DNA from: an uncultured Clostridia bacterium
GTDB taxonomy: Bacteria; Bacillota; Clostridia; Christensenellales; UBA1242
Length of the DNA: 37,409 nucleotides
NCBI GenBank assembly: GCA_947628205.1
Contig: CANQYX010000008.1
Coordinates: 1-37,409 of the forward strand
Reading direction: 5' to 3'
Positions within the stretch are counted from its first letter, which is position 1. The number at the start of each line of letters is the position of its first letter. Under the pieces are notes generated by a model. The model was not told where the DNA came from and did no database searches. It saw only the letters and a list, made by a program, of their open reading frames with translations. The translations under genes and the position numbers were made by a program. Shown one piece after another: positions 17,317 through 33,018 of the stretch.

Positions 17317-18051
17317 TTACTTTAAAAACCGGGTGTCAAAATAATTTTTGCATTGAAATACAATGGCCAAAAATATGTCGAGAATATAAAGCAAAACCAC
17401 AACTAAAATTACAAGATATTTCGCGCCCCAAAACGCAAGCCCCATTATTAGCAGGGCGGTTACAACAAATGCCACAATAATTGGAATAATGCTAAATTTG
17501 TTGAAGCCAGTTTTAATTTTTAGAGATTTGCTGGTTGGCTTATCCTGCACATAAATGGTGTGAGATAAATTTGGGTCCATCTCAAAAAGGCGGTTGCCAA
17601 GATGTGTGTCTAATAACTCTTTAACACACAACTCGGGCAAATATTGCAATTTTGGGCTTATCATGCTATCATGTGTTTTAAAAATTGACTTTACATAAAC
17701 ATTATATGCACCATTGCACATCTGCTCAAAACTATTATAGGCAGGCAAAACATTAACCAATTTGTTGCCATCACCAATTTTAGCAGAAAATTCGTCTAAA
17801 AGCGGATTGCTTAAATTTACACTAGAATAGCACACAATTAAATTGGAAACATTTAAACGCATTAGCGTTATATGCATAACTTTTGTTAAATTGTTTGTGT
17901 AAACCGCGCTGGTTGTGTAACCAAAAGTGCTAAACAATGGGGCAAGATTGGCTTTTACAATAAAAACAAAATCATTGCCAAAATGGGTTTGAAGCATGTG
18001 CACTTTTTTATTTAAATCTTCTATGTTATCCACCACAAAAACAACTTTCAT
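17317..18051 (-). CDS. Hypothetical protein with C-terminal transmembrane segments
   Basis: SD AGGAGG before ATG on minus strand; two hydrophobic segments (FSIIPIIVAFVVTALLIMGLAFW, YLVILVVVLLYILDIFLAIVF). Confidence 0.75.
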   Translation of the reverse strand: MKVVFVVDNIEDLNKKVHMLQTHFGNDFVFIVKANLAPLFSTFGYTTSAVYTNNLTKVMHITLMRLNVSNLIVCYSSVNLSNPLLDEFSAKIGDGNKLVNVLPAYNSFEQMCNGAYNVYVKSIFKTHDSMISPKLQYLPELCVKELLDTHLGNRLFEMDPNLSHTIYVQDKPTSKSLKIKTGFNKFSIIPIIVAFVVTALLIMGLAFWGAKYLVILVVVLLYILDIFLAIVFQCKNYFDTRFLK

Positions 18052-18110: not shown

Positions 18111-18194
18111 GGCGGGGCTTTGCACAAAATGAATTTTGTGCAAAAGGGGGCGCAGCCGCGCCCCCTTTGCGCGCGAGGCGCGCAAAGCCCCGCC
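18111..18194. repeat. Cloverleaf-forming palindromic element, copy 1
   Basis: Outer GGCGGGGCTTT/AAAGCCCCGCC (18111-18121/18184-18194); hairpins GCACAAAA-TGAA-TTTTGTGC (18122-18141), AAAGGGGGCGC-AGCC-GCGCCCCCTTT (18143-18168), GCGCGC-GAG-GCGCGC (18169-18183). Confidence 0.92.
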
Positions 18195-18283
18195 CACGCA
18201 GAAAATATAGCATAAAACATAAATTCTTTTTTTGTTTGCGTTTTGTTTGCGTTTTAATTTGAAATGTGATAAAATAAACATAG

Positions 18284-18433
18284 AGATTCTTCGCGGTGCT
18301 CAGAATGACGTCGTCGCAACACGCCTTTAAGCGGTTGCTCCTCTTCCCCACTGCGCAACAGGTGCTTGCGGGGACCCCTGAGATTCTTCGCGGTGCTAGA
18401 ATGACAAAGATTCTTCGCGGTGCTCAGAATGAC
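18284..18433. repeat. AGATTCTTCGCGGTGCTCAGAATGAC repeats (3 copies)
   Basis: Copies at 18284-18309, 18381-18405 (one base shorter) and 18408-18433; related ATTGCCAC...CTCGCAATCAC segment follows. Confidence 0.9.
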
Positions 18434-18552
18434 ATAGGGATGAGATTGCCACATCGCGATGCTCCTCGCAATCACGTTAATAGTGTCGCGCAAGGGCAAA
18501 TTCGATAGTATAAAATTCAATTCAATTATAATAAAATAACAAAAAGGGAAAT

Positions 18553-19398
18553 ATGGAAGATATAAACAAAATAATAGGCAAAAATCTGCTTCAGTTGCGG
18601 AAAAATGCCAAACTAACTCAAATGGAGTTGGCCGATATCTTTAATTATTCAGATAAAAGCATTTCAAAATGGGAAACGGGCGAAAGTTTGCCCAGCATAG
18701 AAACGCTTTACGATATTTGCATTTTTTATGGCGTAACGTTAGATTCGCTGACAAAAGAGGAAGTTCCCACCCCAGCAGAAGTAACAAAGCCAAAACGCAA
18801 TTTGTTGCCTGTCCATTTGGTTATAACCCTGCTTGCGGTAAGCGCGGTTTGGTTGCTGGCAACCGTGCTGTTTGTCAGCTTTAAAATCAGCTTAAACAAA
18901 AACATTGGATACTTCTTTTTGTGGGCGGTGCCAATTTCGTTTGTCCTGTTGTTGATCTTTAACAGCATCTGGGGCAGGAAATATCTGCTTTTTGCAATAT
19001 TAACCGTGCTTATTTGGTCAACTTTGGCTTGCATACATGTCCAATTGCTGAAATATAACCTTTGGATGATCTATCTGCTTGGCATTCCCCTTCAAGTTGG
19101 CGTAATTTTGTGGGGTGCACTGCTTAAAAAACCGCACAAACAAAAACCAAAGCCAGATCAGGTTAAAGAAACAAAAAAATCGGAAATCAAACTAAAACGC
19201 GAACAAAAAAAGAATAAAAAAGATGTAAAATCTAACCCAGAAATTGTCCCCCTAACCAACATCGAGCCATTAAACGATTCTAACACCAACCAACCTCAAA
19301 CCACTGAACAAGAAACAACTAACACACCAACAAAATCTCAAAACCAAGATGACGATTTTGGGTACGACTTTATTGAAAATAAAGACAAGAAATCTTAG
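18553..19398 (+). CDS. XRE-family HTH regulator with C-terminal transmembrane region and charged tail
   Basis: IGKNLLQLRKNAKLTQMELADIFNYSDKSISKWETGESLPSIETLYDICIFYGVTLDSL; four hydrophobic segments; K-rich tail. Confidence 0.9.
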   Translation: MEDINKIIGKNLLQLRKNAKLTQMELADIFNYSDKSISKWETGESLPSIETLYDICIFYGVTLDSLTKEEVPTPAEVTKPKRNLLPVHLVITLLAVSAVWLLATVLFVSFKISLNKNIGYFFLWAVPISFVLLLIFNSIWGRKYLLFAILTVLIWSTLACIHVQLLKYNLWMIYLLGIPLQVGVILWGALLKKPHKQKPKPDQVKETKKSEIKLKREQKKNKKDVKSNPEIVPLTNIEPLNDSNTNQPQTTEQETTNTPTKSQNQDDDFGYDFIENKDKKS

Positions 19399-19420
19399 CA
19401 TTTGGCTAAGGTTTCTTTCT
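19394..19420 (+). terminator. Probable terminator of XRE gene
   Basis: CTTAGC-ATTTG-GCTAAG followed by GTTTCTTTCTT. Confidence 0.55.
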
Positions 19421-19426
19421 TGGGGA

Positions 19427-19501
19427 GGGGGCTTGCGCGCATTTCGCGCGCAGCGGGCGCGGCAGCGCCCGCTTGCACAAACGCCGTTTGTGCAAGCCCC
19501 C
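19427..19501. repeat. Cloverleaf-forming palindromic element, copy 2 (opposite orientation to copy 1)
   Basis: Outer GGGGGCTT/AAGCCCCC (19427-19434/19494-19501); hairpins GCGCGC-ATTTC-GCGCGC, AGCGGGCGC-GGCA-GCGCCCGCT, GCACAAAC-GCC-GTTTGTGC. Confidence 0.92.
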
Positions 19502-19616: not shown

Positions 19617-19910
19617 GGGGCGTGCTGCGACGACGTCATCCTAGGCAAACGGGGCGTGCTGCAACGATGTCATCCTGAGCAAGCGATAGCGCGTCGAAGG
19701 ATCTAATAGATTCTTCACTGCGTTCAGAATGACATAAGGTTGATAGATTCTTCACTGCGTTCAGAATGACATGGGCACGTTCAGAATGGCATAGGTACGT
19801 TCTATGTCATCCTAGGCAAACGGGGCGTGCTGCAACGATGTCATCCTAGGCAAACGGGGCGTGCTGCGACGACGTCATCCTGAGCAAGCGATAGCGCGTC
19901 GAAGGATCTA
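19617..19910. repeat. GTCATCCTGAGC-type intergenic repeat array
   Basis: 71-bp composite direct repeat (19635-19705 and 19840-19910), extra copy of its first half (from 19806), and TAGATTCTTCACTGCGTTCAGAATGACAT twice (19707-19735, 19744-19772). Confidence 0.9.
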
Positions 19911-19965: not shown

Positions 19966-22900
19966 ATGAGTAAATTAGGGGTAAAAAAATTATTAGTAGT
20001 AATAATAGCAACAATATTAACACTGGGCAGCGGCATAACTTTGGCGGCGGCAATTTACAACACGCGCGCTGATAACGCCCCGCGAGCATTAGACGTTCAA
20101 ACACTGGGTGAGGGTGCAGATGACTGGAATTTTGACAATATCTTAAGAAACTACAAAAATTGCTCAACATTTGAGATTACTCACAAAGATGGTCTTATTG
20201 CCTTAAGAAAAATGGTAAATGAAGATCATAAGAATAATGAGAATAATGTTTATGATTTTAGCGGTAAACGGGTAAAATTATGTGCAGATATTGATTTAAG
20301 CGGTGAAAATTGGGAACCTATTGGATATGGAATAAGAACCGAAAAAACATGCACGTTCAGGGGGTCATTTAACGGGCAGTATCACACCATTTCCAATTTG
20401 TACATAGATAACTCAAAGTTAGAAAAAGTTGGTACGGAAAAATTAAGCGACGGGCAATTGAAAAAAAAATCTATGGAACAACTAGGTCTGTTTGGTTACG
20501 TATCAAATGGAGCTATTTATGATTTGAGATTAGATAAAGTCAACATTAAAGTTTCTTGTTATTTTGACGCTAATCAAGCTTCTTTTGAAGATCAAGTTAG
20601 TGTAGGCTGTTTAGCAGGGAAAGTTTTTAACACATCAATTGCTAATTGTGTAGTAATAAATGGTTCTATAACAAATGAGGCAAAGTGTGATAATGGTTAT
20701 GCTGTAACAGGCGGTTTGGTTGGTACACTTTCTGGAGATAGAGACAAAGATTCAACATTTAATGGGACCTCGGCAAAATATGATATAACAAATTGTTCGG
20801 TACAATGTAATATAGATGCATTAAATGCATATACCAACACTGCCAGCAGCTATGGTTCTTTATATAACTTCGATCATTTATGGTTTGAGGGTAGATGGAG
20901 GCATGCTGTTCCAGGCGGGGGATTCATCGATCCTAATCCTGGTTGGCCAGTTAGTTTATCCACTTATGCAAACATAACTGACGAACTAGAAACATCTAAT
21001 TACCCTATTATAGGCAAATATTTTCAGTTTGTATATTCTTCCGGAATAGTAGGATTTTGCGGAGCTTCTTCGTGCGCTGTTGATTATGATACGAATAACG
21101 AATTATTCGATATAAGGCTGAATATAGAAAGTTGCTATTATGAGGGTAATTTAAAAGGTCACACACAAGGGTTAACTGCGGACATTTGTATTTACAATTT
21201 GCATGCCCCTTACGCTAAAAAAGTTCCGGCGAGATACGAATTCGACAATTGCATTGTTAAAGAAGGTGGTAGTTTTAGTGGTAATACAGCATCCCCTTTA
21301 GATACTGATTACCCTGGCGAGAATGGAACCCTTCCACACGAATGGTCTGGGGTCGTTAAGCAAGCAACCCATTTGCCATCTAATTTGCCAACTGAATACT
21401 CAAAAGCAGATGAAAAACTTGCAGAATTTAGAAAGATATGGAATAAAAGTAAGACACGGAATGGAAATGTTTATTATGAAGTGGTTAATACTTTAAATAA
21501 CCGTATTGTGGATACAGATGCTTTTGTTGGAGATGGTACTCAATTTTATTTGCCTAGAACTAACCAGTTTAATAATGGTGTTCCACTATCTATATACTAC
21601 CTTTATGAACAGAATGAGATTGGCCAGTATGTGCCTAAGCAAAACAATGCTATACAATCTAAAGCTTTACAGGTGGACATTAAAGGCAAAGGAGAAGTGG
21701 AACTAAAAAATATTTTTGACTATCAAGGAAAACCATATACCCAGGTGCTTACCGAAACAAAAGAATCAGCTTTATATTTGCCTTATGATCCGACAGGGTG
21801 CAATTACGCAGAAGATTTTAACAAAGATTCTTGGAACCCTAGTGGGGATAGTTCGCTGTTGTATGGATTCACAATAACGGCAACGCCGAATACCGCTGAA
21901 GGATATGAACTTGAATATATGAAACTTGTCACAAATAATTCAGACGGGAAAGGAACAGCGGGTAGTCCATATAAACTTGAAGTTAAATTTGTCACTCTAG
22001 ATAACCGCGAAAGAGACATTAAAGTGTATTTTGGCGGTTATCTAATGGTTGATGGCACATACGAGTCAGCTCAATTTACAAATTCGGATGGGGTAACTGC
22101 AATTCGAGGATATGCAATTGGGGCGGAAGTGTCATCGTCGGTAGACGAAGATTCGGACACTCGCCATATATTTAACGAATATACATTTAATGGCAATCAA
22201 ATCAATGAAAAAAGCAATTATAATTTCGAGGTTTTTACAAAAGCCAGCAGTATAAACGTATATCCTTCAACTAGTTTGCGTGTTAATTTTTTTACCAAAT
22301 CGGGGTCTGAATCGTGGGATAGCATTCGATTGATAGCCGACTATAGTGGACATACTAATCTCAATCTTCCTTTAGCCTATACTACTGTTGAGTCTAAATA
22401 TGATGTTGCTAGAGATATCATAGACAATGGAAAGGATTACAATAATGCCGAACACACTCCTAACAATTCAAAATATGGTTATGAAGATAGGCGCGGTTTA
22501 ACTGATGGTCCTATGACTGCATTAATAGGCTCGACAAACCATGGATATGATGAATTGGTTTATGTTTGGGCTGTTATTGAAACTCAAAATGTAACCGTTA
22601 ACACGGTTTCTAAAGGGTCAAATCAACTAAATAGAAAAGTGGCGGTAATTGAAGATAATAATTTTAATACTTTAAACATCGAAACCTTAAATTTTAACAT
22701 TCTAAAAAATATTGCACCCGCAGAAGATGTAAAAACAGGAAAATTTAAAAATGAACAGGGGTTAGTCAATCGTACTTATTTCTATAAAGACAAAATCTCA
22801 ATTTTAGACAAATATGAAACTCAATTTACAGAACAATATTTAAAGTTTGGCAAAGGGGAACTTACTCTTTCGCCTAAACCTATTGCTCCAGCAGTGAGAA

Positions 22901-25900
22901 CGGAAGAATATTATCTTTATAATATAAATCCGTCTGTTAGGTCTTCTTCTATAAAATATAACTTTTTTTCAGCAAAGGGATATTCTAAAGAAAATTGTGA
23001 AATAAGCATGGTGAAAAAAGATGCGCAATTAGACATAACATTAAAATTTATTCCGATTGAATATAGCTTTTATGTTTATGCAATAGGGAATGACAATCAG
23101 ATACTTACATCGGATAAATTAATTTATACTGTTGAAAAACCATTTAATGTTTATACCGATGTTACCTTTAATGGTAGAAGAATTAAACCAGAATATTGTG
23201 GTATAATAGATGATGCTGATGTTTGGAGTGCTTATGGATATATGGTAAGATATCCTAAAGTGACACAAGATGAAAAAATTGCTACATACTCTGTTGGGAC
23301 ATCGCAAACTTATAACGAAAATTCCCCAGGAATTACCTTTGGCGTTGAAAAAGATTATTTAGGTGGAATAGATTATCAACTTGTTTTACGAGAGATAGAA
23401 ATTTCGGGCAAAAAATATAAATATGCCAAGATTGCAAATAACATATCCGAAACTGGTGGCGGAGGAATTTGGCAATCTGTTGCGGGAAATGTGTTTGGAG
23501 AAGTTTATAGTGATGTAAGCATCATGCAAATGGGTCCAGATAGCAATCAGGCACACACCAATATTCCGTGCATACTCATTCTTGACGATTATTCATCAAT
23601 AAATGTAAAAATTAAAAACGTTAAATATTCTTTCCAAGACAACGATTTAACCAAATATCAGGAAAAATATTTAACCACCGAAAATCAATATCATTATAAA
23701 CAAAACGATAATGATATGGGAGACCTTTATTACAATAATGCCGGCAATGGTTATGTGTATGAATTTTCGTTGGGCAACACATCTTATGCATATAGATATC
23801 TTAGATACGACAAGAGAGAAGGTTTTATTTTTTACATTGTAAATTTCGGTGATAGTTATGCAACGAAGAGTTTAGCTTTCTTTCCTTATGTTTATAGTAA
23901 GCCGGGCGAACTCTTGTATTATGATAGCAGCAGAGAATTTGCGCTTTATGATGAATACTATACAACATCTGTGTTCTACAGTGTTTATGATAATGGTCGA
24001 CTAGAAAAAACAGACATTTTGAATGGCTATCCATATTTGCGATTTGAATCAGGAAAGACATACGAATTTTGGTATGAAGTTACCTTTAAAAGAATTGAAT
24101 TAGATTTTGAAGGGTTTTTACTGGCTAAAAATTCAACTTCGCGGGCAAATAAAGCGGATGTTTTAAATATTAGTTATTCATTAAATTCTATTGACGAGCC
24201 AGAAAATTTAACCGTGTTCTGGGGCGCTAATTTAAAATGCGATGGACCAGAATATGTTGGCGAAGAAACGGATGAAAATAAATTTTATAGATTTAAAATA
24301 ACAATGCCAGACATCTATTTAAAGTTTGGCTATAAAGCAAATGAAATAAATTACGAAATAATTTATTCTAAGTATTTTACAACGGCGGAAAAGGTAAATG
24401 CCGATCCTAATTATAAGCAGATATACGTAATTTTTAAAGGTGGGCACGATTTGTTGCGCTACAGTGGAGATCTTTTAAGTGTGGCAACTGCAAGATCGGA
24501 TTATTTGTTGAGAAGCAGTAGCACTAGCAGGTTTAGCTCAACCGATATTAATTTTAATTATGTTAGCAAATATCCTTACAATGACCCTAGCAGTGTCAGT
24601 ATAATTATAAAAGCTATTGTTGGCGAAATCGACAACTCAATTCCGTTGTATTACGAACAGGGCAGCGAGGATTATTCCAATTATACTTTACCTTTTGTTG
24701 TTTCTAAAAATTACGATTTGCAAGATATTATAAGCAGTGAAAAAGATTTTAGTTGGACAAACACTTCTATGGCGTATTGGGGGTTAACTTCCAATAAATC
24801 GGTTTTGTTGAAATCGGGCTTTACGCACATTGCAACAAATGTTGGCGACAACAGCTTGAATTTGAGAGCAATTAACGCCATGTCTCAAACTGAGTTAGAT
24901 GGCATTTTTGAAAACGCGCTTGGCAAAAACGAAGGGCAGAGGGTCGTTGTGCTTTTAAGGAATTATTCGCCTGTGCTAAACTTTACTAATCCTCTTGATT
25001 ATGAACGATGGTTCTTTGAAATTGGCGAGTCGGTTGGAAATAGTTATAGCGTGGATAGCGATGTCGTTTACTACAAAGTGTTTAGTTTAAAAACCAATTC
25101 TTTTGGCAGTTTGCAGGAAGGTTTTGTTGCGACAAACCTTGATGGCCAAGAATTTTTGACTAAAAACCCTTTAAAAATTAAAGAGGACGACCCTTATTTA
25201 AAATTGTTGTTTGCAACCTACGAACTTCAAATTAATGTGGGCGAGTTCTTATATAATGGCAATGAATATGTAATTTCAAATTTGGCTAACCAAAACAGGC
25301 AGTTTGAAGTTAAATCTATTAATGGCAACATGGCATATCAATTGGCGGATGACACATGGCTAAAATTCGTTCAAGAAGATAATGTAATTAAACCATATTT
25401 AATTGTTAGCAAAATAACTTGGAAGCAGGTTCTAAAATTTGATATTTCAACCGGAATTTTAAGTTTGTCTGACGGCGCAAACAACTTTGAATTGCTTGTG
25501 TATGTGCCAATAAATAACGCCGATGGATATTTAAGTTATAATGCGGATAACCAAGATTTGATTGGTTTGTATTATGAATCTCCTCAATTTAAACTTACGG
25601 ACGGCTTAGGCAACCCTATTCAGGTTGAATCTAATTTGCTTACTGCGTTAAATATTGATTTTGGCGCGCAAGATGCAAGTGCTTCCAATGTTCGCCAGTT
25701 AACAATTCAATTAAAACCAAAACAATACAGCCAAAATTTCGACACTTTTGGCAATGGCATATTTGGAGAAAATCAATATACAGCAGATGGCGTTGCAAAT
25801 TCGCTTGGCCTTAAAGTTTTTGCCGGCACTAATTTAAAAGTTGGGGTGGATACCTCGGTTGCACAATTGCAAAATTCAGACCAAACAGATAGTTTAACCT

Positions 25901-28900
25901 ATTATTCAATTTCGTTCATTTTGCCAACCCATCTTGAAGCAATTTATACGGTTGAACGCGATTTGTCCAACACTATAATTTACATTATTCCGCGCCTGAT
26001 GGCTAAAACCGGCCATGCAAATTTCTATGTATATCCTGTTCATGGCTATATGCTGGAAAATAGTTCTTTGCAAGATGGCACACCTATAATTGTTTACGAG
26101 TTGGAAGATTATTCCGGCCCAGAAACAGCTTTAACCGCAACCTCAGCCGATGCCTCAGTGCAAATTTTGAAAAATGCTTATTATAAAATTTGCTACAAAA
26201 TGTTAGATTATTACATTCCACTATATTATCGCGGTGTGGGCGAGGAAGTTAGTGATTTCTATAAATACACCGAAAATATAGATGAAAATAGATATAATGT
26301 AACCGAAAGCACAACCTTCCCAGCAGTTACCGACATTTTGGGGGATGAATTTTCCGATTTGTCTGGCGGATTTGATTGGGCACTAACATCTAATAAAACA
26401 GTTTTGATGGAGCAAGGGTTCAATTTTGTGTTAAAACCTGGCGAGGATGAAGGTGTGGATGAAATTTTAAGCCTCGATACCATTCAACAAGACAACCTTG
26501 ATGCAATTTTCGACAAAGCGCGTTTGGGCAGCTCGCACGTTGAGTTATATAGAAGCATCTATCCTTTATTGGCAGGGGTAGAAGGGGATTATTCTTACGA
26601 TTACCAAAAAATAATATTTGTTTTAACAGGCGCAACTGCCTTTGATAGAACTTACGCAAAATATTATCTTGTCAGCGGCATAGATGTTGGCTCTTATTTA
26701 GGCGATTTAGAGCCAAAAGAATTAAATGCAACCATAGACGAATTGGAAAATTATCCTTATTTATATCCAGTTTATAAACAGTACGAATTACGTTTATTTA
26801 CCGATGTATTCAACAATGATTTGTTAAAGGAAAATCAAAAAGTTATCGTAACCACAAATAATCAATATTATAATGTTGATAACGAATTGTCCCCTTGGAT
26901 TGGCTACGACACAGAAAACAAAGCAGAAGTTATTTATGAACATAGAGATGTTGTGGTTGGGCAAACACTATCATTTGATGGCACAAATTTAATGTTAGAT
27001 AGAATTATTTCGTCTGGCTTTACCTTCCAAGTTGCTGTGCCATTAGATGCAGTTCTTGGCGGCACCGCAACCGATAGAAATGATGGCTCTGGGTATATTT
27101 ATTTAAGCAACCCAAGTTTAAAAACTTATTATTCAAAATTAACATGGATAATAAATGAAAACGACACAGAAGTTTTAACGCGCGAATTTGATTTAGACAC
27201 TGCAACCGACCTTAACTTTAGTTATCAAATTCAGGGCGAAACCACCGTTCGCTTATTGTTAACTCCGCGCGAAATAACCGAAATTTTACAAGCGGGCGAA
27301 AAAACAGAAGATTCTTACAAAACCGGCGTGGGTGGAAGAATTATCTCTTCTCAAACAGTATCTTCAGATTCTCCAAACCGTTTGCAAAATTTAATAGACA
27401 ACACTGTTAATTTAAATGAGTTTACCGTGTTCGCCGGCTCGAGTTTAAATTTAATTAAAGCTAAAACTAATTTTGACTATTATTCAATTAATGTTACCGC
27501 ACCGCTTTATTTAAAAGATTTGGTTGAGGCTCTAAAAGGTGTTGCTAATAGGGAAATTAAATTTGACATTTTGCAATATCTAAGCACAACTACATCTGCC
27601 GTGTCCGATTATACAATTTATCCAATGCATGGCTATAAATTGGATGTTGAAAATTTATCGCCATTAAAATATTCTGATGGTAGGGAATTAAATGTTGACT
27701 TGCTAACAAATGCTAGTGTTGGCTCAATGATTTTGTCCTCCACCTTAAATTATTTTGTATGTTATTCTCTTGTGGATTCTACAATTCCACTTTACTACTA
27801 TAGCGAGGCAATAGACAATAAAAATTACACCTCGTTAACCGTAGATTTCAACATTAATTCTCCAAATATTGATTTATCTGGTGTTAAACCAGATGGGGTG
27901 GATGTAAACGGATGGATAATTTCAACTAACGTTAACGATTTAACAAATCAATTCACACACATCTTAAATAAAGAAAATCAAATTGAAAGGATAGAAACAC
28001 AGCAACAAATTTTGGATATTTTTGCCGATTCGCAAACTGTAACCTTGTTTAGAGATAATGGCATGTCGGATAAATACGATTATGATTCTTGGACATTTGA
28101 AATTGGCGAAAGTTTACGCACCAAAACAGCAACATATTTTATTGTTAAAAACTTTGTAACTCTTTCAACAAGTTATGGTACAATTCCATTTATGTTAATT
28201 TCTGCCGATTCAGATAGCACGGTTGGCCCATATATACGACCTATGGTTTTAAAAGAGTATAGCGTTACAATAGATAACCTTTCTTACGATAGCGAAACAA
28301 TGCAGGATACTACAATTCACGCAAAAGATGCTAATAATCTGTCAACTTATTTGGGTGTTGGTGGGGAAGGCAAATTTGTTGTTAATCCAAATTTAATTCA
28401 AAATCAGTTTGGCAAAGGATACACACTTTCAACGTTAATTAAAAACACGTCTAATTATAACTATCAGTTCTTTAACAGTTTTATCAGCAAACCTTCGTCT
28501 TTCTTCTTAAAACAAGATTTCTTATCTAACCTAGACACTACAAGCCAGTGCGATGGCAATTATTGGTTTGTGTTTAACTATGGCTATCAAATTTCTGGCT
28601 GGAAGGTTATGTACCTTTTAGATAATAAAGTTTACGACCTTTACATTTTAGGCGATAGTTGGCAAGAAAAAGAGCACACTGTTGGTGGCATAGAAAATTC
28701 AATATCCGATTTAAATTACATTTACCTTGCAAGCCTTGCAGGATATTTGGATTCTAATTGTTTTGACAGCGCAAGGCCAGCAGAATTAATCTTAATTCCT
28801 TGTTGGCAAGCGGTTAAAATTGCTCCAATATATATGAGCGGAACAAATTTAAGTTCAATCAGCTTTAATTATGGCGACAATTACAATCTTTCAAAATACG

Positions 28901-31900
28901 AGTCAAGATACACGCCTTTGGGGCAAACACTCATGTTCTTTGCCGCACCAAGTTATGTTGAAAACGAAACGAAGGGCATAATTTTAAATCCTAACACTTC
29001 AAGCGGAACGGTTGAAACAATTGCATGGAATTATAGAAATTTAACTTACACAGATTATTCTTATTCAAATGGCGAGTTTAAAATAAATCTTGCACCTAAA
29101 TTTGCAAACAACATTCATAAAATAGATTTACAGATAAATGAAATAAAACCATTAAGTGAAAATGGCAAAAATAAATATGTTTTAAATAGCAAGAATTATT
29201 CTTTCGACCCAACAAATAAATTTGTTTTAACCGAATATACTTACAGCAATAAAGATTTGTATAAAGATGCTGATTTCAGCTTTACTTCACTTGCCGACTA
29301 TAAAAAAGCTGGCGAATATTTATGGGCGGAAAATTATGCAAAAGTTTTAAACGATTTCAATTTAAAATATAGCCAAGCAATTGCGGTATCAAGTTTATCA
29401 ATTTTTAACAAAATTTATTACACTGGTTCAAGCATAACTGTGGGCAACACAGAATATGAAGGGCAAAGTTATCCTTCAATTGAATGTGCGCCATCTGCGC
29501 TAAAATCGATGTATATCTATCTAGCAAACAACCAAAAAACAGGTTTAATGCCAGCATTCTTAACCAAATATTACGAATTAGTTTTATGGCACAATCAAGG
29601 CATAACCACAACTGGCAATCCGGTTGACTATGCGTATGCCACAGATTTATACAATCAAAACGAACATAAAGATGAAATAACAGAAAATAACTTTGTGCTG
29701 TACGACATTTGGCGCTATTCACAAACTTTGAATAATGGTGTTTATGATTACTCGCTAAAACCTCATTATTTTAGAAAATACTATTATTTAAATGTCAAAA
29801 CCATTTTAGATGAAACTAAACAAGTTGGCGAATATGGCTATCTAATTGTGTCGGCTAAAGACAATTTGGATAATGGCAATAAGTCCGAAAATTTCCTTGC
29901 AATTTATCTGGACGGAAGCATGAAGTTCTTCTCGTTTGCAGCTGGAAATGATTGGAGCGGATTGCTATCTCACACCAATGTTTCAGCAGAAAATGCAACC
30001 ACCGAATTGATTAAAGATTTAACACCAGTTGACAAGATAAAAATCTATGCTGGCTGTGACTTGTGTCTGTCTGTTTACGACCAAAGCAAAGACCCAACCG
30101 CTATGGCTTCTGGGCATTACGATGAAATGATTGGCTACAAATGGACATCGTTAATCTGGTATGATAGAGATGGGCATGAAAACTTTACCTCTAACCCAAA
30201 CAAAAGTTATGAAAACGATATTTCAAAAGAGTCAATAGATGAATTTGCACTTTCAACTGCAGAAGTTTGCGATATTGACGTTGAATTTGGCAAGATTGAA
30301 TATTCGTTTGACATAGTTTTGGTGGATAGAAATGCCGGTTCGTTTAGTTATGTCGACAATGAAAATAACTCCAAAATTGGCTATAAAATTCTTGAAGATT
30401 TGCAAATAAAGGTTGGAGAAATAAACATAATAAGTTATTCTGCAACGCTGGGCTATGAGTTTGCAGAAAATGCGTTTGTGTTAATAAAAAATGGGCAAGA
30501 AACTGTTTTGGCAACCTATTCAAGCTTAAAACAGGGCAATCAAATAAATCAGTCCTTGCAAATAAATCTAACCGGAGAATGGTTGAGGAAGAATTTGTAT
30601 GCTAATTATACGGACTATTCGTTGTCTATAACCTATTTGGGCGAAATAGACATTAACACAACCAAAATAATGTTCAATTTATATGCAAGAACGTTCGATT
30701 CAAGCCAGTTGGCAACAACCAAGTTGGAGGATATTCTATTAACAGAAAATTGGATAGTTGGCACAGATGTCTCGTTAGAGGATTCGCGCCTGTTTGCGCC
30801 AATTGAAAGTGGCGGATATGGCTATGTGTTTGATGGAAAACAATATGTGGTTATAAAAAGTTATAGCTATGTTGCAAAAAATCCGTTAAATGATAGCAAT
30901 GCACTTGATCAATACGATTTTATATTGAGCGAAATTCCAACAGCCAGATATAATATAACAGAATTTTTAAGCGATAATTTAGGCATTTCAACCGGCACAA
31001 TTGCCGCAAACAGAAATGTTTATATAGTGGTAGAAGTAAGGCCATTGTTGTATGTTGATGTGGAATTTATTATGGCAGATTACGACACAAACACCACAGT
31101 TAGGCAAATAACAATTCAAAATCAAAATACAGATAAATTAAATGCCTTATCGTTAACACTTACTCGAAACAATGGCTATGTTGAACAATATGGCGTTAAC
31201 TATTTCCAAGTTCAAGGCAACACAAGGTTATATACTTTCTTTAATCAAGAAAATGTTATTCCTAGTGAAAAATTGATTTATAACGCAAATAGATATTCGG
31301 GTGTGGATTATAAACTTAACACTTTAAACTTAAATGAAAACAAATTTACAATAACAGAAAATTCAATTTTGCAAATTACGTTTATTCCAAAACTTTTAAG
31401 TTTAAATGCCGAATATCAACTAGATGGCAGCGCAACAGATTTACAAACGCTAAAAGATAAATTGATTGTGGAAAATGCAGAAATTGGTCCACAAGAAAAT
31501 TTACACATCGGTTCGGTTGTTAATTTAACTATTAGCGTTCAATCGGATTATCTGGTTTCAATAACTAGGTTTGGTAATGTTATTGCTGTAATAGGCAATT
31601 CAATTTCGTTCTTTGTAAGTGATAGCGATTATGATTATGGCGCGGTAAATTGCACAATAAATGTTTACAAAAAACCTAACCGCAACATTATAGTAAGGTT
31701 GCAATTATTAGACAGCAACCAACAAACAGCGGCAGATAATTATGGCTCTTTAACAATTATTGTTGATGGCGTGCCAAACGAAAACGCAACTGAAGCAAAT
31801 GTGGTTAGAGGCAAACGCGTTGATGTAACAATGCAGTTAAACACTGGTTATTCTTATGCTGGGCAAATTAATGCACACGGAATAAGAAAAACCGTTCCAC

Positions 31901-33018
31901 TTTCTAATGGATTAATCAATTTAATTGAGTCATTTAGAGTTGAACAACAAGGCGATGTCGAGGTGTTCCCAGATGCTGGCGAATATTTAATTTATATCAA
32001 AAAGGAATTAATCACTTTGGAATTAAATTACAATTCAAACGAGGGCAGATACACCATGTTCAACAACTCATATAATTGCATAAAGAGCGAAACTAATGGT
32101 GGGCAAACGGTTAAAATAACAGGTGCTTATGTTGGCTCGGAAATTAGTTTTGGCACAGTGCGCGAAGTGGCTAACTACGATTTAGATTATTTCTACTATA
32201 TAGATAGTTCAAATGTAAAACATCAAATAGACAATAATCTAACAGTCACAAGTGAATTGTTAAATGCTTGCACCACAGCGAATAATTTCTATATTAATTT
32301 CGGCGTGCAAACAAAACAAAAATATCAGGTTAATTTAAAAGTTACAGCCAGTGTGGTTGGGCTTGAAAATAATCTGCAATATTTCACAAATCTGCAAGAA
32401 TTTGTATCAGGCAAATATTATCCAAGCAATACAAATGTTGAATTTACATTCTTTGGAAGCGTGCTTAACAAATATGATGTTACTGTAACGATAAACGATC
32501 AAGAATTTAAGCCAAATGAACAGGGTTACACAATATGTTCATTCGAGCTAAAAGAGGATACAACAATTGTTGCGAACATCGAACAATCTAAATTCAATTT
32601 AAATGCAAACGAATATCATTACAACCAGTTAAAGGACTTAAACGATCCAGATTTGAAACCGGTTGACGAGAGCGAAAATTTAAACAATTTGCCAAATATT
32701 TCAAGATATAATGATTTAGTTACATTAAATATAGCGTTAGAAGAATCGAATTATAAACTTAAATTAGTTGAAATTATATTCGATGATTACAATTCCTTGT
32801 CAATAGAAATTGTTGATGGTGCAATGGTTGTTAAACTCAACGGTCAGTTAATAATTCCAGATGAAAATGGCATTTATAACATTATGTTAGGGCAGGTGGG
32901 TTACTCTTATTCATTAACACTTTCTAACGATAACTTAACTATAATGTTCGCGGCTAATCAAGATCTTGCATTTAATTTGCACTACATTAATATTAAAGAA
33001 ATTTTGCCTAAACAATAA
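19966..33018 (+). CDS. Giant (4350 aa) secreted/surface protein with GLUG-like N-terminal region and internal repeats
   Basis: Single 13-kb ORF; N-term MSKLGVKKLLVVIIATILTLGSGITLAAAIYNTRA; ADIDLSGENWEPIGYG...FRGSFNGQYHTISNLYIDN...LGLFGYVSNGAIYDLRL; SD AAGGGG; terminator downstream. Confidence 0.88.
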   Translation: MSKLGVKKLLVVIIATILTLGSGITLAAAIYNTRADNAPRALDVQTLGEGADDWNFDNILRNYKNCSTFEITHKDGLIALRKMVNEDHKNNENNVYDFSGKRVKLCADIDLSGENWEPIGYGIRTEKTCTFRGSFNGQYHTISNLYIDNSKLEKVGTEKLSDGQLKKKSMEQLGLFGYVSNGAIYDLRLDKVNIKVSCYFDANQASFEDQVSVGCLAGKVFNTSIANCVVINGSITNEAKCDNGYAVTGGLVGTLSGDRDKDSTFNGTSAKYDITNCSVQCNIDALNAYTNTASSYGSLYNFDHLWFEGRWRHAVPGGGFIDPNPGWPVSLSTYANITDELETSNYPIIGKYFQFVYSSGIVGFCGASSCAVDYDTNNELFDIRLNIESCYYEGNLKGHTQGLTADICIYNLHAPYAKKVPARYEFDNCIVKEGGSFSGNTASPLDTDYPGENGTLPHEWSGVVKQATHLPSNLPTEYSKADEKLAEFRKIWNKSKTRNGNVYYEVVNTLNNRIVDTDAFVGDGTQFYLPRTNQFNNGVPLSIYYLYEQNEIGQYVPKQNNAIQSKALQVDIKGKGEVELKNIFDYQGKPYTQVLTETKESALYLPYDPTGCNYAEDFNKDSWNPSGDSSLLYGFTITATPNTAEGYELEYMKLVTNNSDGKGTAGSPYKLEVKFVTLDNRERDIKVYFGGYLMVDGTYESAQFTNSDGVTAIRGYAIGAEVSSSVDEDSDTRHIFNEYTFNGNQINEKSNYNFEVFTKASSINVYPSTSLRVNFFTKSGSESWDSIRLIADYSGHTNLNLPLAYTTVESKYDVARDIIDNGKDYNNAEHTPNNSKYGYEDRRGLTDGPMTALIGSTNHGYDELVYVWAVIETQNVTVNTVSKGSNQLNRKVAVIEDNNFNTLNIETLNFNILKNIAPAEDVKTGKFKNEQGLVNRTYFYKDKISILDKYETQFTEQYLKFGKGELTLSPKPIAPAVRTEEYYLYNINPSVRSSSIKYNFFSAKGYSKENCEISMVKKDAQLDITLKFIPIEYSFYVYAIGNDNQILTSDKLIYTVEKPFNVYTDVTFNGRRIKPEYCGIIDDADVWSAYGYMVRYPKVTQDEKIATYSVGTSQTYNENSPGITFGVEKDYLGGIDYQLVLREIEISGKKYKYAKIANNISETGGGGIWQSVAGNVFGEVYSDVSIMQMGPDSNQAHTNIPCILILDDYSSINVKIKNVKYSFQDNDLTKYQEKYLTTENQYHYKQNDNDMGDLYYNNAGNGYVYEFSLGNTSYAYRYLRYDKREGFIFYIVNFGDSYATKSLAFFPYVYSKPGELLYYDSSREFALYDEYYTTSVFYSVYDNGRLEKTDILNGYPYLRFESGKTYEFWYEVTFKRIELDFEGFLLAKNSTSRANKADVLNISYSLNSIDEPENLTVFWGANLKCDGPEYVGEETDENKFYRFKITMPDIYLKFGYKANEINYEIIYSKYFTTAEKVNADPNYKQIYVIFKGGHDLLRYSGDLLSVATARSDYLLRSSSTSRFSSTDINFNYVSKYPYNDPSSVSIIIKAIVGEIDNSIPLYYEQGSEDYSNYTLPFVVSKNYDLQDIISSEKDFSWTNTSMAYWGLTSNKSVLLKSGFTHIATNVGDNSLNLRAINAMSQTELDGIFENALGKNEGQRVVVLLRNYSPVLNFTNPLDYERWFFEIGESVGNSYSVDSDVVYYKVFSLKTNSFGSLQEGFVATNLDGQEFLTKNPLKIKEDDPYLKLLFATYELQINVGEFLYNGNEYVISNLANQNRQFEVKSINGNMAYQLADDTWLKFVQEDNVIKPYLIVSKITWKQVLKFDISTGILSLSDGANNFELLVYVPINNADGYLSYNADNQDLIGLYYESPQFKLTDGLGNPIQVESNLLTALNIDFGAQDASASNVRQLTIQLKPKQYSQNFDTFGNGIFGENQYTADGVANSLGLKVFAGTNLKVGVDTSVAQLQNSDQTDSLTYYSISFILPTHLEAIYTVERDLSNTIIYIIPRLMAKTGHANFYVYPVHGYMLENSSLQDGTPIIVYELEDYSGPETALTATSADASVQILKNAYYKICYKMLDYYIPLYYRGVGEEVSDFYKYTENIDENRYNVTESTTFPAVTDILGDEFSDLSGGFDWALTSNKTVLMEQGFNFVLKPGEDEGVDEILSLDTIQQDNLDAIFDKARLGSSHVELYRSIYPLLAGVEGDYSYDYQKIIFVLTGATAFDRTYAKYYLVSGIDVGSYLGDLEPKELNATIDELENYPYLYPVYKQYELRLFTDVFNNDLLKENQKVIVTTNNQYYNVDNELSPWIGYDTENKAEVIYEHRDVVVGQTLSFDGTNLMLDRIISSGFTFQVAVPLDAVLGGTATDRNDGSGYIYLSNPSLKTYYSKLTWIINENDTEVLTREFDLDTATDLNFSYQIQGETTVRLLLTPREITEILQAGEKTEDSYKTGVGGRIISSQTVSSDSPNRLQNLIDNTVNLNEFTVFAGSSLNLIKAKTNFDYYSINVTAPLYLKDLVEALKGVANREIKFDILQYLSTTTSAVSDYTIYPMHGYKLDVENLSPLKYSDGRELNVDLLTNASVGSMILSSTLNYFVCYSLVDSTIPLYYYSEAIDNKNYTSLTVDFNINSPNIDLSGVKPDGVDVNGWIISTNVNDLTNQFTHILNKENQIERIETQQQILDIFADSQTVTLFRDNGMSDKYDYDSWTFEIGESLRTKTATYFIVKNFVTLSTSYGTIPFMLISADSDSTVGPYIRPMVLKEYSVTIDNLSYDSETMQDTTIHAKDANNLSTYLGVGGEGKFVVNPNLIQNQFGKGYTLSTLIKNTSNYNYQFFNSFISKPSSFFLKQDFLSNLDTTSQCDGNYWFVFNYGYQISGWKVMYLLDNKVYDLYILGDSWQEKEHTVGGIENSISDLNYIYLASLAGYLDSNCFDSARPAELILIPCWQAVKIAPIYMSGTNLSSISFNYGDNYNLSKYESRYTPLGQTLMFFAAPSYVENETKGIILNPNTSSGTVETIAWNYRNLTYTDYSYSNGEFKINLAPKFANNIHKIDLQINEIKPLSENGKNKYVLNSKNYSFDPTNKFVLTEYTYSNKDLYKDADFSFTSLADYKKAGEYLWAENYAKVLNDFNLKYSQAIAVSSLSIFNKIYYTGSSITVGNTEYEGQSYPSIECAPSALKSMYIYLANNQKTGLMPAFLTKYYELVLWHNQGITTTGNPVDYAYATDLYNQNEHKDEITENNFVLYDIWRYSQTLNNGVYDYSLKPHYFRKYYYLNVKTILDETKQVGEYGYLIVSAKDNLDNGNKSENFLAIYLDGSMKFFSFAAGNDWSGLLSHTNVSAENATTELIKDLTPVDKIKIYAGCDLCLSVYDQSKDPTAMASGHYDEMIGYKWTSLIWYDRDGHENFTSNPNKSYENDISKESIDEFALSTAEVCDIDVEFGKIEYSFDIVLVDRNAGSFSYVDNENNSKIGYKILEDLQIKVGEINIISYSATLGYEFAENAFVLIKNGQETVLATYSSLKQGNQINQSLQINLTGEWLRKNLYANYTDYSLSITYLGEIDINTTKIMFNLYARTFDSSQLATTKLEDILLTENWIVGTDVSLEDSRLFAPIESGGYGYVFDGKQYVVIKSYSYVAKNPLNDSNALDQYDFILSEIPTARYNITEFLSDNLGISTGTIAANRNVYIVVEVRPLLYVDVEFIMADYDTNTTVRQITIQNQNTDKLNALSLTLTRNNGYVEQYGVNYFQVQGNTRLYTFFNQENVIPSEKLIYNANRYSGVDYKLNTLNLNENKFTITENSILQITFIPKLLSLNAEYQLDGSATDLQTLKDKLIVENAEIGPQENLHIGSVVNLTISVQSDYLVSITRFGNVIAVIGNSISFFVSDSDYDYGAVNCTINVYKKPNRNIIVRLQLLDSNQQTAADNYGSLTIIVDGVPNENATEANVVRGKRVDVTMQLNTGYSYAGQINAHGIRKTVPLSNGLINLIESFRVEQQGDVEVFPDAGEYLIYIKKELITLELNYNSNEGRYTMFNNSYNCIKSETNGGQTVKITGAYVGSEISFGTVREVANYDLDYFYYIDSSNVKHQIDNNLTVTSELLNACTTANNFYINFGVQTKQKYQVNLKVTASVVGLENNLQYFTNLQEFVSGKYYPSNTNVEFTFFGSVLNKYDVTVTINDQEFKPNEQGYTICSFELKEDTTIVANIEQSKFNLNANEYHYNQLKDLNDPDLKPVDESENLNNLPNISRYNDLVTLNIALEESNYKLKLVEIIFDDYNSLSIEIVDGAMVVKLNGQLIIPDENGIYNIMLGQVGYSYSLTLSNDNLTIMFAANQDLAFNLHYINIKEILPKQ

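Follow-up and report, generated by a model that had tools for sequence, protein, structure and literature searches.

Short palindromic repeats are usually defined by their sequence. REPs have been described as palindromes of 20–40 bp (PMC3733652, PMC3116915). Like the RAYT-mobilised REPs and REPINs, the units dealt with here are short, palindromic, extragenic, dispersed and non-autonomous, but they are four-stem cloverleafs of 65–90 bp and their arm sequence is not conserved. The constant GTAG/CGTC tag is absent from the flanks and hairpin feet of 41 elements. A Y1/REP (RAYT/TnpA) mobiliser was rejected on its absence from most carriers, Y1 being the sole transposase type searched: PF01797 had no match in 9 of 10 carriers (including G000, G001, G007, G014, G021 and G191; the carriers are incomplete MAGs, 76–99%), the one match being in G032. 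Bacterial MITEs are likewise non-autonomous, short and found in spacers, and the closing stem here corresponds to their terminal inverted repeats. Unlike MITEs, the present units have three perfect hairpins as their interior; at the resolved sites, whose flanks have diverged, no target-site duplication is evident, and no partner transposase was found (with Y1 alone searched). Mitochondrial GC clusters, double-hairpin elements and repetitive hairpin-forming elements are mobile, GC-rich hairpins found within AT-rich DNA; their pairing is constrained and the mechanism by which they move is unknown (PMC4478555; PMC2800124). The likeness lies in mobile GC-rich hairpins with constrained pairing in AT-rich DNA, and the difference in that the units here are bacterial-chromosomal, always have three arms on a closing stem and for the most part share no arm sequence. 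A literature search found no paper describing a cloverleaf repeat family in bacteria.

The window, a stretch of 37,409 nt from a gut bacterium of the Clostridia with a small genome (986 kb), contains two such units, one on either side of a regulator gene:

17317–18051, − strand: conserved 244-aa gene, no Pfam match.
18111–18194, + strand: cloverleaf copy 1 (RNA and DNA folds, detector, covariance model R1 at 74.6 bits with copy 1 in the R1 seed).
Parts of copy 1: closing stem 18111–18120/18185–18194; arm A 18121–18142; arm B 18143–18168; arm C 18169–18183.
18553–19398, + strand: gene for an XRE-type regulator (HTH_3, by Pfam) with a hydrophobic middle, probably membrane-spanning, between the copies.
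19427–19501, − strand: cloverleaf copy 2, in opposite orientation (RNA and DNA folds, detector, R1 at 52.8 bits on the − strand).
Parts of copy 2: closing stem 19427–19433/19495–19501; arms 19435–19451, 19452–19473 and 19474–19494.

Each copy consists of a closing stem and three hairpins which meet at a junction with 0–1 unpaired base. Copy 1 folds at −63.4 kcal/mol as RNA (z −7.6) and −42.5 as DNA (z −8.0), and copy 2 at −57.0 (z −6.6) and −37.3 (z −6.8); equal stability was reached in 0 of 200 dinucleotide shuffles for both copies, in RNA and DNA folding alike. The closing-agnostic detector, which ignores sequence and requires only that adjacent hairpins be enclosed by a closing stem of 6 bp or more, scored the two at 36 and 30, as against a best of 19 among 20 shuffled windows. 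The order of the arms (AAA/TTT arm, GC arm, GCGCGC arm) agrees between the copies on opposite strands, and they are therefore an inverted pair. An earlier note on this DNA had proposed the two cloverleafs, their inverted arrangement around the regulator gene and the conservation of structure over sequence; the folds, the detector and the arm order uphold it, and the family proves larger than it reported. A second, unrelated dispersed repeat (AGATTCTTCGCGGTGCTCAGAATGAC / GTCATCCTGAGC...) is present beside both cloverleafs, at 18284–18443 and 19617–19910. Directly downstream of copy 2 is an ORF of 4350 aa (19966–33018) with a signal-like start, the product of which is probably a giant surface protein. 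Near a tRNA, at 2486–2816, there are four tandem-like copies of a 79–81 nt AT-rich repeat (GGGACGGAGAACGC core).

BLAST with copy 1 found no other copy in its own genome and no match in phages. The frame GGGGCTT-N(50-80)-AAGCCCC occurs at 8 places in that genome as against 0 for the reversed control pattern, and three hairpins lie inside all 8 matches, so the host has at least 8 units. Units are about 65–90 bp, lie between genes and have a closing stem of 6–14 bp, often GGGGCTTT/AAAGCCCC; further closing stems occur (CGGGGCTAG, GGCGGGACTT, GGGGATGGGC) and the unit counts are lower bounds. Carrier relatives in the genus, Clostridia MAGs whose rabbit-gut origin is taken from the sample name 'Lapin', have 1 to 13 units each. 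A search of the genus with R1, a covariance model from five copies, gave matches in 9 of 34 genomes and none in 25; it missed a unit in G032 (L231) that the detector found. Run over 1.39 Mb of retrieved sequence, the detector read 55 distinct units with three arms, none with two, and a single one with four, which overlaps a three-arm unit. The earlier note had staked its reading on further copies existing and on their mutations preserving pairing: there are 8 in the host genome and dozens in relatives, and 96% of cells keep pairing.

Over 396 genomes of the order, the only R1 matches outside the genus were in G191, a distant genome, where stretches of ~145 kb hold roughly ten to twelve units with a closing stem near GGGCGCGGCC. 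This set is denser than that of the genus and has a recurrent AAACGGC/GCCGTTT arm. Two of its loci, L272 and L273, have all arms in common, and some G191 units, these among them, are recent copies. R2, a model from the genus and G191 groups used with stricter filters at which weak matches are lost, had no match among 40 further members of G191's family (one belonging to its genus) or among 397 genomes from elsewhere in the phylum, and sequence stretches of 20 genomes belonging to the order's other genera contained no unit. Altogether, about 800 other genomes of the phylum had no match. Transfer or separate origin, besides shared ancestry, is possible for the G191 set. The frame GGGGGCTTTT/AAAAGCCCCC, sought over 85,462 species, yielded 47 stretches, of which a clean cloverleaf came only from rabbit-gut Clostridia MAGs and two from elsewhere are weak folds. 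G001 has at least 12 cloverleafs, six of them on one 60-kb contig (C4; L141–L143), and elsewhere the members of several pairs are no more than 3 kb apart; this clustering hints at local spread.

Filled and empty sites are directly comparable. In G014 and G021 the 244-aa and XRE genes are divergent as in the window, and the spacer, without copy 1, is 163–173 nt as against 502 nt. After the XRE stop codon of G021 the flanks match and copy 2 is absent, another cloverleaf being present elsewhere in the spacer, about 110 nt past that stop. In the spacer between rlmN and rpe, G021 has a cloverleaf immediately after the stop codon and G010, with the same flanking genes, has neither cloverleaf nor repeat; G000 lacks the cloverleaf there and has a different dispersed repeat, similar to that beside the window cloverleafs. 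Units are discrete, present or absent as whole insertions in spacers. At the rlmN site and at both window copies the flanks have diverged, and no target-site duplication is evident. Unit sites favour positions just after stop codons: in counts which include orthologous loci more than once, 15 of 41 units (37%) start within 10 nt of a stop codon as against 10% of random spacer positions, and 30 of 41 within 80 nt as against 32%.

That one cloverleaf recurs in units of almost completely different sequence suggests that a short mobile element is being maintained through its shape and not its letters. With a probability of roughly 0.58, the units are copies of a short dispersed non-autonomous mobile DNA element whose recognised part is the four-way junction and whose movement we infer. 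The constant feature of such an element would be a closing stem with exactly three hairpins around a nearly gap-free four-way junction. The cloverleaf would form as single-stranded or extruded DNA, and a putative structure-specific enzyme, the host's or the element's, would recognise the junction more than the letters. Arms may be kept perfect through loss of unpaired copies, through template-switch repair between the sides of a hairpin, or both. That the family represents a shape-inherited class of mobile bacterial DNA, in which recognition of the four-way junction by such an enzyme leaves nearly all of the sequence free to change, is a tentative and rather doubtful extension. The earlier note had listed a mobile element, a REP/BIME-like unit, a cruciform and a structured RNA. 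To that list is now added a dispersed family, whose filled and empty sites favour a non-autonomous mobile or REP-like nature; structured RNA and, with no Y1 in the ten carriers searched except one, REP/RAYT membership are not supported.

The pairing follows the rules of DNA. A model-fitted alignment comprised both strands of 31 copies, so its 62 rows are not independent; 96.2% of its cells are paired as against 64.4% when shuffled and at most 49.2% when slid, and 559 cells are changed on both sides as against about 14 on one side. The 1351 stem pairs of 41 units comprise 1334 Watson-Crick pairs, 4 G-T and 13 other mismatches, as read by a detector that itself favours Watson-Crick pairs; the arms of most copies were not preselected, because only the closing frame had been used to find these copies. 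A terminator control for G-U showed the detector admitting A-C pairs as often as G-U. In the predicted folds of the window SRP RNA and its two tRNAs, G-U accounts for 23 of 88 pairs (26%) and 6 of 51 (12%) respectively. The near-absence of G-T in the units, with G-U common in these RNAs, indicates maintenance at the DNA level, and the pattern is what is expected from DNA-level pairing or arm-from-arm copying and not from RNA selection. Rfam 15 over the window matched the SRP RNA and tRNAs only, and not the cloverleafs. Structured RNA is not supported, given the near-absent G-U pairs, the lack of an Rfam match and the rarity of one-sided changes.

An RNA-level role in the 3′-UTR, where the cloverleaf RNA would end or stabilise the mRNA once transcription has passed the stop codon, is unlikely. 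It would suit the strong placement bias just after stop codons, the great stability of the RNA folds and the T-rich DNA downstream of some copies, but G-U pairs are nearly absent, Rfam gives no match, loop bases are not conserved, many copies are without a T tract and some are in divergent promoter spacers (window copy 1, G000:C2).

The truA and IUNH sites have a cloverleaf in several species, which also fits retained function. Such occupancy of orthologous sites, together with DNA-level structure kept over sequence, would be expected of a BIME-like chromosomal site for protein binding or topology, with a nucleoid protein or junction protein binding its four-way junction and its copies kept for function. 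This is distinctly unlikely, however, with 25 of the 34 genus genomes having no R1 match and the same sites being empty in close relatives.

Comparisons between copies trace the ageing of the units. Two near-identical units 2.1 kb apart in G001 differ almost only at unpaired bases, and an orthologous unit, nearly identical in G014 and G021, includes one double change, T-A to C-G. The truA unit has its loops replaced and its stems mostly retained between G000 and G021, and an orthologous unit of G007 and G013 has its arms largely replaced. Arm order relative to truA is reversed in G000 compared with G014 and G021. At the 3′ end of truA (L044 3001–3081, L033 3001–3078) the loop letters are on the same strand relative to the gene (TCTT/TCTC, GTT/TTT) despite this reversal, as though the arms had changed position with one another or the hairpins had each been inverted. 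Copy number is low (at least 8 in the host genome) and few copies within a genome have any arm sequence in common, so that only a few pairs give evidence of recent movement.

Template switching at quasipalindromes has been described in E. coli (PMC7202029), and could keep palindromes perfect without selection while replication errors create or remove units. The excess of both-sided over one-sided changes would follow, as would the IUNH arm loop that is GCA in one species and its reverse complement, TGC, in another. It is nevertheless quite improbable that the units are such a mutational by-product, since the constant three arms, the family-typical closing stem and the preference for stop codons would be left unexplained.

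Copy 1 is 60 nt upstream of the start of the 244-aa gene and immediately upstream of a promoter-like site; both copies avoid the promoter-like sites beside them. Of 30 loci examined across the genus, 23 have the XRE gene beside this 244-aa gene, and hardly any carries a cloverleaf at that place; on this evidence the XRE gene is ancestral at the site and lies outside the element. Being an old resident, it is not mobilised by the cloverleaf pair, as the earlier note had supposed. The idea that the pair acts as a composite unit, mobilising or insulating the XRE gene, has in its favour the one gene enclosed by an inverted pair, and the cloverleaf pairs that flank genes also in G021:C18 and G001:C4, but is contradicted for this locus by that cloverleaf-free adjacency and by the different spacer position of the 3′ copy in G021, and can scarcely be entertained.

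The preferred reading, a mobile element kept by its fold, concerns a family that is defined by a fold, three-armed and obeying the pairing rules of DNA, while its sequence is nearly unconstrained; ordinary repeat finders and BLAST therefore miss it. It provides a system in which to test whether a mobile element may have cruciform or hairpin DNA itself as its substrate, and how palindromes remain perfect during evolution.
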